Made by a program: the position numbers and the translations under genes. DNA of 64,000 nt from Eopsaltria australis (Eukaryota > Chordata > Aves > Passeriformes > Petroicidae), in the NCBI GenBank assembly GCA_034509425.1, contig JAVTVJ010000012.1, positions 11,381,001 to 11,445,000 of the forward strand. Direction: 5' to 3'. The first letter of the stretch is position 1. Every line of letters begins with the position of its first letter. Under the pieces are notes generated by a model, which did not search any database, was not told the DNA's origin, and was given only the letters and a program-made list of their open reading frames with translations. Below are positions 15,101-21,100 of this stretch, piece after piece.

Positions 15101-18100
15101 AAGCTTCAGTTGATGCTGCTATAATACAGACTTATATCATCTTTATACCAGCTTGGATATAAGTAGAAGTCCAAGATCTAGAACTGCCTAAAATTCTGTA
15201 GCAAAATTCTGTGATTACAGTACCCTTAAATGTTGCTGTAAAACCACAGTAAAGGCTGTGTATTTAACTTTGCAAAATTTAGTACCATTTGTTCTAGAAA
15301 GCTGGAGGAATACAACATTTCACATAATCAACCTTGAGATAGCTGTAATTTTTCTCACTGTTGAATGCTCCTGCAGGCCCCCTCCCACCCTGCTTTGAAA
15401 ATGCTCTTCTGTTTGTTACATTGTCTTGCGGTGAAATCTTAAGCACAAGTTCCTTCTTTGTTCCTTTCCTTGTTGTTGCTTTGACGCAAAAAACAATGGC
15501 ATTACCTCTTCTTAAAAGCCGAGAATCATGGAATGGTTTGAGTTGGAAGGGATTGTAAAGATCATCCAGTTCCAATCCCCCTGCCGTGGTTCAGAGACAC
15601 CTTCCACTAGACCACGTTGCTCAAAACCTCATCCAGCCTAGACTGGAACACTTCCAGGGATGGGGCATTCCCATCCATTCCCCCTTGTCCTGTCACTACA
15701 TGCTTTTGTAAAAAGTCCCTCTCCATCTTTTCTTCAGGCTGAACTGTCCCAAATAGATGTCATGTCACCCTGAGGCTTTCTTGTCTGCTTATCTTGGCTT
15801 CCTCCTGTGGGGAGAAAGAATATGGAGAGCAAACTGTTGAGTCTAGGGGCAATATTCTACTTTATAGCTTTTTGAATGCTGTTGAATTGGGACTGAGCAT
15901 TTGACTTCTAGAGCTGAATATTCAGTTTAAAATTTGACCTTAAAATCACCCCAGTACTTATAGGAAAGTTTTGGCCTTCCTTCTACTGTATGTTAGCTGA
16001 TCAGAGGTTTTTTATTAAACACCTGTTTTACCATTCATTCTCTTACAGTGTCACTTGGCACCACTTCTCTCATCAGCACAATAGTTCTATTTGCAGTCTA
16101 CCATTTCACAGGAGGTCAACATACTGAAATGTACTGCTGCACACCAAACATTTTCTGTAACTCCTGTTAAATACATCACAGATAGGCTCTTAGTTATCTG
16201 GCTAAATTTCTACTTTAAATATGTTATTCTAGGTACTTCGTCCCCTAAGGCACTACTTACGTTTCTTACTAAGAAGAAAGAAATGGAGATTCTAATGCTT
16301 CTAAATTCTTTCTCAAGAAGACCCTTTTCTTTCAGTTACATGAATACTGGGTGTGAGGGAGTGCATTTTGGGTGCATGCAGTTCTGTGCCCTTGGTACTT
16401 TTCTTTCAGCATGGAAATTCTGCGACTGTTCTGGTAGACTTAGTGTTTCAATGATTCCAAGCAGTTGAACAGAACTTCATTGCTACTTTTCTTCTTAGTA
16501 AGTTTTATGTCTTAATTAGTTTTAGATCTAGGCTTTGATCTAAATCTTAGACTTTGATTTCTGTCCTTACTTGACTACATGAAAAGTAGAAATGCTCCCT
16601 GTTCTTCACATTGCCAGAGGGCTATTACAAGAAATGATTTATGGGTTCACGCTTACTGATCTTTGAATCAAATTGCAGGATCTTTCTTATGCATGCATGC
16701 ATGCATGCATACACACAGCATCATTCCTTTATATCTAAGATTGAAAAAAAGCTTTTTAGACTGTGGACTGATGTTGGCTTTTTTCTGATGCACCTGTATG
16801 TGCAAGCTGCTGAGAATATGCTTTTTAATTGTTTTTCTTTTTTTTTTTTTCAATTTCTGGTTTGAGTTTTCAGATAATACCAACCCTCTATAAGTGTGGC
16901 TCATTCTTAACTATTAAGGCTGAGTATATTTTGTGTGGCTGTATTTTACTAAGAAGTTCCACAGGCAAATGTGAGCTGTTTATCATCTTCAACAGTGAAA
17001 CAGTAAAGAGAAGCTGGAAGGACAGAATAGGAATTCTTTTCTGCTGGCATGTTTGAATTCAAAGTTGGTTGCCTTCAGTTTTGTTGTAAATATGCAATTC
17101 TAGTTTTTTCATTGCTTTCCATGAAAGGTAGTGAAACAGGAGTACCAAGTAGTGGATAAACTTAAATATTAAACACTTAAAACATCAAGGATTTTTTTGT
17201 TCAGTGAAATGGGCAGTGAAAAGAATGTTTAGGTGCTCTTCACTTGAACAGGACAGGTGTTTGGCAGAGATTTCTCTTCTTGTAGAGAGCTGCATGGATA
17301 GAAGGTCTTTTCTATTTTAAAACTTCAATCCCTGTTTTTTCAATATATTTTTTGAGGGGTCAGGTTAACTTTCGCTTCTGATCAATTGGGAAGATATGTC
17401 CACTTCCACATTTCAGCCGGCTGTCATTTTTAGCTGAACATGGCTGACTTTATAATAAATCCATTACTTTTGTGTAATGAATTGCGTACATGCAAGGGAG
17501 TCAGTACATTGAGAATGTCCAAGTGGAGTGTATGTGTGTAGATGCGGTGTCAAAAGTTATCCAAGTGATGAGAAGCCCATTTTTGTGTAATAACTATGTC
17601 AATGTCAATGATAGGTCTTCAGTTTTAAAAATACTTACCATTAGCTTTGTCTTAGTTGCCACTACAGCTCTTGTTTGAGAAGTGAGAACTTTTCTTGTCC
17701 ATCCTGGTCTGAAAATAGAGGTTTCCACTGACTGCTTCCACAGTTCTTGTTTTCAGTCTTGAGTTTCATGTTGCCTCATTGGTGAAGGCTGTACTTTAAG
17801 TGGTGTTATCTGTTACTAAGGTGCTTCGACATTCTTTGGACAGACTGGGTTTGTGGAACATTGGCATCATCGCTGCGGATGGAGATTGGAATATCTCAAA
17901 AGAGATGATAGTTGATCCCTATCTTAATGATGCTATTGAGATAGTCGGGTAAGTGTGGGAGAAGGGAGGCATTTTAAACATTGCTATTGCTTCCTATCTG
18001 TAAGTCTTCATCTCCATTTTCAAGAGTTATATATTCTTATTTCATACTTCCTAGCTGTTTCCATTTCTTCCATCATTGTGTACAGTGGTGATGGATTATT

Positions 18101-21100
18101 CTTTCTTGTCTTTCCCTCTTCTTTCAGTTTAGTCCAGGTGTAAGCTGACCTTACTACTCTTCCATCATTTCTTTCAAGTGTCCATTAGGAGCTATGTTTT
18201 AGGCTTCTTGGCACTAGCAAATGACAGGAAACTTCTAACTAATCTGCATGTGCATGTTCCAAGTCAGAAAAACCATAGGTCTGAATTCTTGGTCTGCAAC
18301 TGGTTTTCATTTCGGGTGAACTTGAGCTTTCAGAGTGAAACTTATCACCATGGGACTTTCTGTGGCTGCAGCTGAGATTTTTCGGATCATATCCTAGAGG
18401 TAGAAGTTTCTGTTTCTTGCTTATATCTGATAACAGATGATATTAGAAATGCACGCACTGACAGTAACATAGAAATAAAAACAAACACCCAAAGTTTGTA
18501 AACTAATACAGCATATCTCAATTTTGGCAGCTGGGAATGACTTCTGTTGGTGTTTCAGCAAATGTCAACTCGCTTGTTTGTCTTCACTCTTGTTCCATAA
18601 TACACTTTCTTACTACCTTGCTTCTGGCAACTTATTCTACTGGTCTTGCTTTCTTTCTAATCTCTGGTTTCTCAAAATTATACATAGTTTTGAAAAAAAA
18701 TTACATGTTTCCTGTGGAAGTCACCTATACAGATATAAATTGCTCACTTGTGTTACATTTGTTGACTTGTTTATCTCTGTTGTTAACCTTACTGTGATAA
18801 GAACATTCTTGTGGTCACTCATGTACCATTTATCCTCTGTATGTAAAGAAGTGTGATATGCTCATCATAGTTTAAATGAATGCACGATTCAAAGGTTATA
18901 GCAAGTCAGTTAAGCAGTTTTTTATATAAAGAAACTGCTTTCATATCTGTTGAGCTTGTAAATACCTATCACCTGAAAGTGGCTGCCTGAGAAATACCAA
19001 TTGTAGTGTCAGCATTGAGTAACTCATTTGGTTTAAAATAAACTTAAAAAAACTTTCTTAGGTTAGGCAAGACTTGCAACTCAGCAAGTGCATTAGGGAA
19101 ATGTTTTAGTAATGATTTCCATGACAATACAGCTTGAAGAATGAATGCACTGACTGTGTATGGCTCTTGTTTCTTTAAAAGTTTGACAGAATCAAGGATA
19201 GGAGTACTTGTTTTTGTTAGAACCACAGACATGTTTTAGTTAAAATGTTCTTTTTGTCAGAGGTTTTTCTTAAAAGTCATACTGAGTTTTCTCCAACTCC
19301 CCCCCCCACTACTGATCACAAAAAATGAAGAGTTAGGTTTTTGTGTGCAATGGTTTTGTTATCTATCAAGAAATTAAGGTCAGCACAAAATGAGAACACC
19401 ATGTTTCTCAACCAATGCTGTCTTTAAGGTGCTAACTACCAAAGAGAGTTCTTGCTGACCTAGTAAAAGATAATAGTATTTAAGTGTCTGTCCTTCAAGT
19501 GCTCAGGTTCAGAAAGTTTGTGGACATCTTGTAGTTTAACACTTAGCACTGTAACATCTAAGTGGCTGATTTGCAAATAGAGTACCTTGCATGAAATGTG
19601 ATATGCTTTGTCTTTATCTGTACTTCTGTGTCTGTAAGAAGAACAAAACATTTTTAATTTTTCCTTTTACCATGTATTTTAGAATTCAGTATGGTAGAAG
19701 AAGGTGTCCTTTGAATCACTTTGTGCTTGACAGTCTTGTATGTTTTGTTTGGTGTAACAGTTGTCCAATTGAATTGAATTGAATTGAAGCATGGTAGTTC
19801 TTTCAGCTGGTGTTAAAGAAGATGCTGCCTTTCCCAATATAAAGTTTTGACAATTTGAAAAAACATTTTTTTTTTCATTTGTCCCTTCTCTCTGTTCTTT
19901 ACTCTCCTTTTTTTTCCAAGCTGTTGAGGTACACATTGGATAAGCATGGTCTGGAGCAGGTGAGGATCATAGCCAGCGATAGACTGTGGGAGCCCATTTC
20001 CTTTGTCATGATGACTGACTCTGAGCTCCACGGAGTGGTCGATGTGATTGGGTAGGGGGTTCTCTCTGTTCTTCTTTCTTGGTGGTTTGTTTATGGTTTG
20101 TCTTCATCTTATATATAACTAACACAGCCTAAGCTTTACTTCTCTGTACTCTTACCTGCAAGGAAAGGATTGATACTATAAGACTTTCTGACTAACCCAC
20201 ATAAATCACACAGCTCTTGTCCCAGTAGCAGCCTCAACCTTTAATTGAAGCAGGAGTCTTCTATCACGTTGAAGATTCCTGTTGGGCGTGGTTGCACTTT
20301 TGATGGATTGAAGGTTTTTTGGACAACACTGTTTATTCTGAGGGTTGTTTTGATTACTATAACTTGTATGCAAAAAGTGCTTTAGCTTTACAACTTTGTA
20401 CACAACTTTGTGTTACTAACTTCCACTGATTTGTTACTGAAATGTTTGTAATCCAGAAATTCTGTGATTCTGCTTTGAGTTACAATGGCTTGATGCTTTG
20501 TTCCCATTTGGCTTTGATGACAAAGCTGTGTTTGAAAAACATGCAACCAGCTGACTTGTTTTACTAGTTCTGGGTTTTGTCATAATATTTTACAATAGAC
20601 TAAATTTGAGATTGATTATTGACTTGATGGCTGAATGGAAATGTGTGTATGAAATGTTCATTAACTTTTTACAGTAGCTCTAAACTTTACTTACTAGGTG
20701 CCATAAACTTGCCTGACACAATCACATGCTTAAGATGTGTCAGTTCTTTGCTTCAACTTGAGTCTTTTCCATTCATTTTATATATCTGAACCATAGGAGG
20801 TGTAGAAATGAAGACTTTTTCTCCAAATACAGATAGGCAGTCAGTGTCATCTACCCCTGCAATCAGTCCCTCCCCACATTCTGAACATGAACAGTATCAT
20901 GGCAGTTTTTCATAGGTGGTGTCTTGGATCATGTCTGGATGAAGCTTGACAGTTTTTACTCTGTCTAAGTAAGCTGTATTTGCTTAACTCTTTATAAGTG
21001 TAAGTTTTACATCCCTACTGAGATTCAGTCTTAACAAGGACGTTAAATACCCTCCAGTGTATTTCAGCTTTTATTGGGCAGGGATACTGACACTTATGAA

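Follow-up and report, generated by a model that had tools for sequence, protein, structure and literature searches.

We analyzed a window of 64,000 nucleotides (64 kb) from the passerine bird Eopsaltria australis (contig JAVTVJ010000012.1 of assembly GCA_034509425.1, positions 11,381,001 to 11,445,000 of the forward strand), which carries a single GALC gene on its plus strand, and found that this gene contains two homologous versions of its seventh exon, 7A and 7B, either of which completes the reading frame of the enzyme. It is likely, judging from sequence comparisons, that 7A and 7B are ancient alternative exons, and that the choice between them retunes the rim of the enzyme that faces the saposin and the lipid, rather than its recognition of the sugar. 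Here we set out the evidence for the exon pair, its distribution among vertebrates and its position in the enzyme, and weigh the alternatives.

Two alternative seventh exons in a single GALC gene

The gene model was built from tblastn matches and GT-AG boundaries in the window (coordinates in Table 1). Either 7A or 7B alone, joined to the other 16 exons, gives an open frame, of 673 residues with 7A and 674 residues with 7B. With both included, the frame meets a TGA at codon 243, just where 7B begins, and with both skipped it ends in a stop at codon 228, so that the enzyme would be made only when a single one of the two is included. Both exons are entered in phase 0 and left in phase 2 and are bounded by GT-AG sites, and 17 of their 43 aligned residues are identical (tblastn E of 2.6e-6 to 2.7e-6 within the window). 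Adjacency, homology, shared phases, similar length and a frame that breaks on double inclusion or skipping are among the features by which mutually exclusive tandem exons are recognized, and these are found here. A tblastn scan of the window for a third copy of exon 7 yielded none (next best E 0.36). The intron between 7A and 7B is 1972 nt long, so that their exclusion cannot be put down to an intron that is too short, and inspection by eye of the splice sites, every one of them GT-AG, showed no U12 pattern. Much of this had been anticipated in an earlier note on this stretch: the exon coordinates, lengths (128 and 131 nt), phases and splice sites and the sizes of the two isoforms were borne out, as was the homology, for which the count of about 16 shared residues becomes 17.

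Both isoforms scored above the cut-off for PF02057, PF17387 and PF21708, which represent the GH59 barrel, central and lectin domains; for PF02057 the scores were 406 bits (7A isoform) and 408 bits (7B isoform). The mouse GALC structure 3zr5 was matched by residues 31-673 of the 7B isoform, which is thus of the mouse type, in agreement with the resemblance of 7B to the mammalian exon pointed out earlier. The acid/base E182 and the nucleophile E258 (mouse numbers) are present in both isoforms, within the motifs IWNER in exons 5/6 and SSED in exon 8 that the two have in common, and galactosylceramidase activity is predicted for the 7A form. The GALC protein of the window is 92-95% identical to the six passerine GALC proteins among the matches of a search with its 7A stretch. 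A GH59 domain search of the 1.17 Gb genome gave five exon matches, all inside this GALC gene, and no further GH59 locus was found in that search, in which eight candidates were scored.

Occurrence of exon 7A among vertebrates

A protein search with the 7A stretch of the window returned 36 matches from birds, squamates and teleosts, with 57-96% identity. All 36 contained a 7A-type exon, which excludes a chance origin of 7A. The corresponding stretch of cod gave 107 matches from 203 candidates and added frogs, a caecilian, tuatara, coelacanth, lungfish, shark and chimaera. With the 7B stretch we obtained 137 matches, and platypus was the one mammal named among the 120 listed. When the 228 GALC proteins retrieved were sorted by motif, 101 had only 7A, 113 only 7B, nine both and five neither; four of these five were recognized as 7A by eye (lungfish P0204, shark P0213, frog P0218 and caecilian P0225), and the 7A exon is present in 114 of the 228.

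The earlier note had considered that 7A might prove absent or stop-ridden in related birds. The outcome favours its reading: ten bird proteins carry a 7A-type exon, nine of them at full length, the exception being a pigeon model (P0007) without the last residues of the exon; beyond birds, relatives from squamates and tuatara to frogs, teleosts, shark and chimaera have it as well. The occurrence of both 7A and 7B in ray-finned and lobe-finned lines places the pair in the ancestor of bony vertebrates, which lived over 400 million years ago. Among cartilaginous fishes our searches did not retrieve 7B, though 7A was found there. GALC probably exists in a second form in many vertebrates.

Conservation and ancestry of the two exons

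For the analysis of conservation, rows were assigned to the 7A or the 7B set according to the length of the exon (43 or 44 residues), and 28 of the 228, with cut or fused exons, were set aside. The clean rows, 95 with 7A and 105 with 7B, represent 78 and 83 distinct exons, respectively. Invariant positions number 11 of 43 in 7A and 15 of 44 in 7B, and sites 210, 212 and 226 differ consistently between the sets. Since the sets were split by length, the presence or absence of P216 follows from the split and is not independent evidence; independent of it are A210 and G212, found in all 78 distinct short exons, and S210, found in 82 of the 83 long ones. The exons of the window are about equally similar to their counterparts elsewhere, with identities to bass of 0.72 (7A) and 0.70 (7B), to cod of 0.72 and 0.75, to frog of 0.70 and 0.70 and to gecko of 0.74 and 0.73, two related species being compared in each of the last three cases; for 7A, identity was 0.67 to chimaera and 0.70 to shark. 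Across the ray-finned and lobe-finned proteins retrieved, 7A and 7B are each shown to be conserved at their own characteristic residues, and for 7A this extends to cartilaginous fishes.

The outgroup consisted of 32 bacterial GH59 proteins (of 35 loci) whose sequence covers the exon. Neither exon is closer to them: the mean number of identical residues was 18.7 with 7A and 18.8 with 7B, and the nearest consensus was that of 7A for 14, that of 7B for 15 and a tie for three. A decayed copy would not be expected to be as close to the bacterial relatives as 7B is, and the conservation of 7A, close to that of 7B, likewise rules decay out; the earlier description of 7A as 'far more diverged' was therefore misleading. 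P216, found in none of the 32 bacterial proteins, and S210, found in three, look derived in 7B, while L192, E226 and D232 favour 7B as the ancestral exon; E226 occurs in 20 and D232 in 13 of the 32 bacterial proteins, and 7B retains both where the 7A consensus has other residues. In most of the bacterial proteins, additional residues are present at other points of the loop that follows strand 5, so that any 'ancestral loop length' depends on the alignment. N-glycosylation sequons occur in 34 of the 78 distinct 7A exons and in one of the 83 distinct 7B exons; those read (25 of the 34 rows) are N-I-S or N-V-S in the loop in some birds, including that of the window, and N-D-S or N-E-S further on in many teleosts.

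Position of exon 7 in the enzyme

Exon 7 corresponds to mouse residues 192-235. Going by the secondary structure of low-confidence AlphaFold models of both isoforms, built from 40-row alignments, the swapped segment appears to start inside helix 4 and to run through strand 6; the earlier note had it begin at strand 5 and end at the start of strand 6, and of this the inclusion of strand 5 holds, the two limits not. The active-site residues G48, T93, W135, N181, E182, E258, S261, R380 and W524 (PMC4445328) and the pocket residues listed in PMC13187500 (human precursor numbers, converted to mouse numbers by subtracting 16) all lie outside 192-235, and both isoforms should therefore bind galactose alike.

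The clearest difference between the exons is in the loop after strand 5. Its commonest form in 7B is A-S-D-N-L-W-E-P (mouse 209-216), with S210, N or R at 212, L213, E or Q at 215 and P216. In 7A it reads A-A-D-G-x-W-x and is one residue shorter, with A210, G212, a variable residue 213, mostly S or D at 215 (E in four of the 78 distinct exons) and no residue 216. Position 215 is the site of the Krabbe mutation E215K, which is reported to traffic correctly and to retain activity; the residue lies at the surface, adjoining the saposin A (SapA) site, and the authors suggest that the mutation disturbs SapA binding (PMC5764952). Because this rim adjoins the SapA docking site, exon choice may change the presentation of lipid to the enzyme. 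Among the functions guessed at in the earlier note (substrate range, stability and saposin contact), the last fits the papers best, by proximity only.

We propose that an ancient tandem duplication within GALC gave rise to 7A and 7B, which would be spliced as alternatives. The outcome would be two lysosomal galactosylceramidases that share their catalytic pair and galactose pocket and differ in the segment that comprises helix 4, strand 5, the loop, helix 5 and strand 6, with the core of the change probably in the loop that follows strand 5, at the mouth of the barrel. Exon choice would then alter how lipid is supplied to the enzyme, through saposin affinity, the saposin partner, pH or substrate range, and not how the sugar is cut.

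Several observations weigh against this interpretation. E215 makes no direct contact with SapA (PMC5764952), so that the saposin step rests on proximity, and the AlphaFold models (mean pLDDT 59.4 and 63.1) were too poor to be used as evidence and uninformative on the rim. Exon 7A varies slightly more than 7B (0.86 versus 0.75 bits of mean entropy), the 7A of the window is only 0.56 identical to that of coelacanth and only 0.63 to that of lungfish, and exons 1-6, with identities of 0.82-0.92, are better kept than either version of exon 7. No mammal, turtle, crocodilian or salamander was named among the matches of the two 7A searches; the database was clustered and the search relied on shared five-letter words, so that missing names are not proof of loss, and in these groups the 7A form was either dispensable or missed. 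Finally, names such as 'isoform X2' are presumably automated annotations, and single gene models may be wrong.

The two isoforms could also be functionally equivalent, the exons persisting through tissue-specific splicing without any biochemical difference. We consider this unlikely, even though neither exon is on average nearer than the other to the bacterial outgroup, both isoforms have the catalytic and pocket residues that the papers list, and the two zebrafish paralogues, Galca and Galcb, are both active (PMC10002607): a neutral exchange would not have kept the consistent differences at 210, 212 and 226.

Splice sites and possible regulation

Splice sites were scored in bits with consensus tables and ranked among the 450 AGs or 494 GTs of positions 14840-22275 (Table 1). 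The strengths of the two exons complement each other, 7A having a weak 3' and a strong 5' site and 7B a strong 3' and a moderate 5' site. The constitutive exon 8 has a 3' site of 3.8 bits, as weak as that of 7A, so that the weakness of the 7A site is not diagnostic on its own, and the 5' sites of exons 4, 5, 8, 11 and 13 (4.7-5.9 bits) score like that of 7B. The strong 3' site of 7B suggests, less firmly than the points above, that 7B is the default exon; inclusion of 7A might then require an activator or repression of 7B.

A weak 3' site is often seen in regulated exons, and together with the stop that double inclusion produces it would suit a poison exon, by which 7A, when spliced together with 7B, would lower the amount of GALC. 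This seems improbable to us, because a poison exon needs none of the protein conservation seen in 7A, which is about that of 7B and includes the invariant positions found across 78 distinct exons, and because 7A alone yields a full-length open frame.

Two motifs stand out in the flanks of 7A and 7B. TCTT is dense downstream of both (positions 17949-18248 and 20052-20351), with 11 and 8 copies per 300 bases versus 2.6 in the window, a density of the kind associated with pyrimidine-binding splicing repressors. Among eight splice motifs counted in the 300-base flanks of 7A and 7B, ACTAAY occurs twice downstream of 7B, versus 0.12 per 300 bases, and within 150 bases downstream it is found, in these two copies, at 7B only among the exons of this gene. 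QKI-activated exons tend to have QKI sites downstream (PMC5548867), and QKI, a myelin splicing factor, may thus favour 7B. This weaker suggestion is tempered by the P value of about 0.002 for the two sites, which is uncorrected and concerns a motif chosen out of eight, and by the failure to find a UAAY half-site near any of the three ACTAAC sites.

Table 1. Features of the GALC gene in the 64-kb window (positions counted from the first letter of the window)
Feature	Position	Strand	Remarks
GALC coding region	5968..33661	+	exons 1-6, 7A or 7B, 8-17; open frames, phases, GT-AG
GALC exons 1-3	5968-6135, 7024-7092, 8955-9018	+	
GALC exons 4-6	10980-11093, 12493-12632, 14801-14839	+	
Exon 7A	17821..17948	+	128 nt, 43 residues
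Exon 7B	19921..20051	+	131 nt, 44 residues, mammal-type exon
GALC exons 8-11	22276-22431, 24455-24579, 25698-25825, 26274-26363	+	
GALC exons 12-14	27596-27685, 28018-28162, 28549-28729	+	
GALC exons 15-17	30940-31103, 32702-32778, 33518-33661	+	
7A 3' splice site	17803..17820	+	weak pyrimidine tract, 4.0 bits, rank 105/450 AGs
7A 5' splice site	17949..17954	+	GTAAGT, strong, 10.3 bits, rank 2/494 GTs
7B 3' splice site	19903..19920	+	strong pyrimidine tract, 11.7 bits, rank 4/450 AGs
7B 5' splice site	20052..20057	+	GTAGGG, moderate, 5.0 bits, rank 17/494 GTs
ACTAAC motifs, candidate QKI sites	20118, 20191, 20415 (span 20118..20420)	+	+67, +140, +364 from 7B end

A short run of GAATT repeats was seen by eye at 19769-19788, in the intron between 7A and 7B. 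Intron 6 contains, at about 15500-15800, what looks by eye like a fragment of an avian CR1-type retroelement.

One gene or two

Exon 7A is listed as part of a separate isoform in many species, and 13 species pairs of 7A and 7B proteins could be examined. For seven of these (largemouth bass, Polymixia, Embiotoca, Neolamprologus, masu salmon, Trematomus and pink salmon) the two listed isoforms do not differ at any aligned residue except within exon 7, the Trematomus 7A row being 23 residues longer at its end, and in six of the seven both isoforms come from contigs of the same listed size. The pairs of Sparus and Sander are identical upstream of exon 7 and differ downstream of it (408/418 and 348/368), that of rainbow trout differs on both sides, and that of cod, counted among the 13, could not be cut at exon 7. 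In Chanos (P0217/P0104) and Hoplias (P0214/P0099), 7A and 7B are found in diverged paralogues on different contigs. Ten gene models run the two exons, or parts of each, together, probably because 7A and 7B cannot join in frame, and in all ten fused models checked 7A precedes 7B, the same order as in the window; these models, like the listed isoform pairs, are annotations. Together with the conservation of 7A, the identical pairs support the proposal of the earlier note, as far as sequence can, that the exons are mutually exclusive and that 7A is under selection.

A tree of 41 chosen proteins, from which exon 7 had been removed, pointed in the same direction. The exon labels required 12 changes on this tree and were not clustered (102 and 104 of 500 shuffles were as low), and this interleaving of 7A and 7B argues for alternative exons of one gene. 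The exception is a 7A clade of seven rows (100/100), six of them from named ostariophysans and one unnamed, with the cyprinid rows P0032, P0034 and P0035 within it. The ostariophysan 7B rows fall in the other teleost clade (99/98), alongside euteleosts that list both forms, and because the two kinds of row lie in separate clades, it looks as if exon choice has been sorted into two genes in the ostariophysans sampled. One point tells against the split being clean: the 7A row of Hoplias is labelled isoform X2, so that its gene lists another form.

That all 7A-type proteins derive from a second GALC gene, with exon 7A of the present gene unused, is very improbable: the diverged paralogues of Chanos and Hoplias and the single ostariophysan 7A clade would fit, but the isoform pairs identical outside exon 7, the interleaved rows in the rest of the tree, and a window gene that has both exons in a genome where the scoring of eight GH59 candidates found no other locus speak against it.

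Relation to known systems

OGDH (exons 4a/4b) and U2AF1 (exons Ab/3) likewise have adjacent homologous exons with the same phases and close lengths, one of which is used per open frame; unlike these, GALC is a lysosomal glycosidase. A look-up of the term in the main text of three papers on such exons (PMC9741552, PMC5740500 and PMC9013439), two of which treat human exons, did not find GALC named. Compared with mammalian GALC, a GH59 enzyme known from mouse 3zr5 and the saposin A complex (PMC5764952), the isoforms of the window have the same three Pfam domains; the 7B isoform is of the mouse type, whereas in the 7A isoform a different stretch takes the place of residues 192-235, with one residue fewer and with neither E215 nor P216.

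Zebrafish also has two GALC forms, the active paralogues Galca and Galcb (PMC10002607, PMC7218095), both of them lysosomal (PMC10002607). Those two arose by gene duplication; the two forms of the present bird would result from a choice of exon within a single gene. Chanos and Hoplias each have a 7A row for one paralogue and a 7B row for the other; if zebrafish follows this split, either Galca or Galcb would be a 7A-type enzyme, which we note as a supporting lead. The 7A/7B pair of GALC was not found described in the open-licence literature, judged by titles and the starts of abstracts. The isoform sequences are already public under isoform names; their meaning is new as far as we found.

Implications

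A bolder reading, which we offer tentatively and would not yet bet on, is that jawed vertebrates started out with two GALC enzymes, set by the choice of exon, that the 7A enzyme works with a different saposin or on a different galactolipid from the myelin-lipid path of 7B, that ostariophysans made two genes of the pair and that the line to mammals lost 7A. If this is true, the loss of 7A in the mammal line would mean that research on Krabbe disease has studied mainly one of two ancestral enzymes.

GALC is the lysosomal enzyme that is lacking in Krabbe disease, and the structures matched here are those of the mouse enzyme, which has the 7B type of exon. That a second version of the segment next to the saposin site exists, conserved to about the same degree, amounts to a natural experiment: comparing the 7A and 7B forms could show how the active-site rim governs the need for saposin and the range of lipids, and why E215K causes disease despite its trafficking and activity. 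Where fish or birds serve as models of GALC function, two forms of the enzyme may have to be reckoned with.

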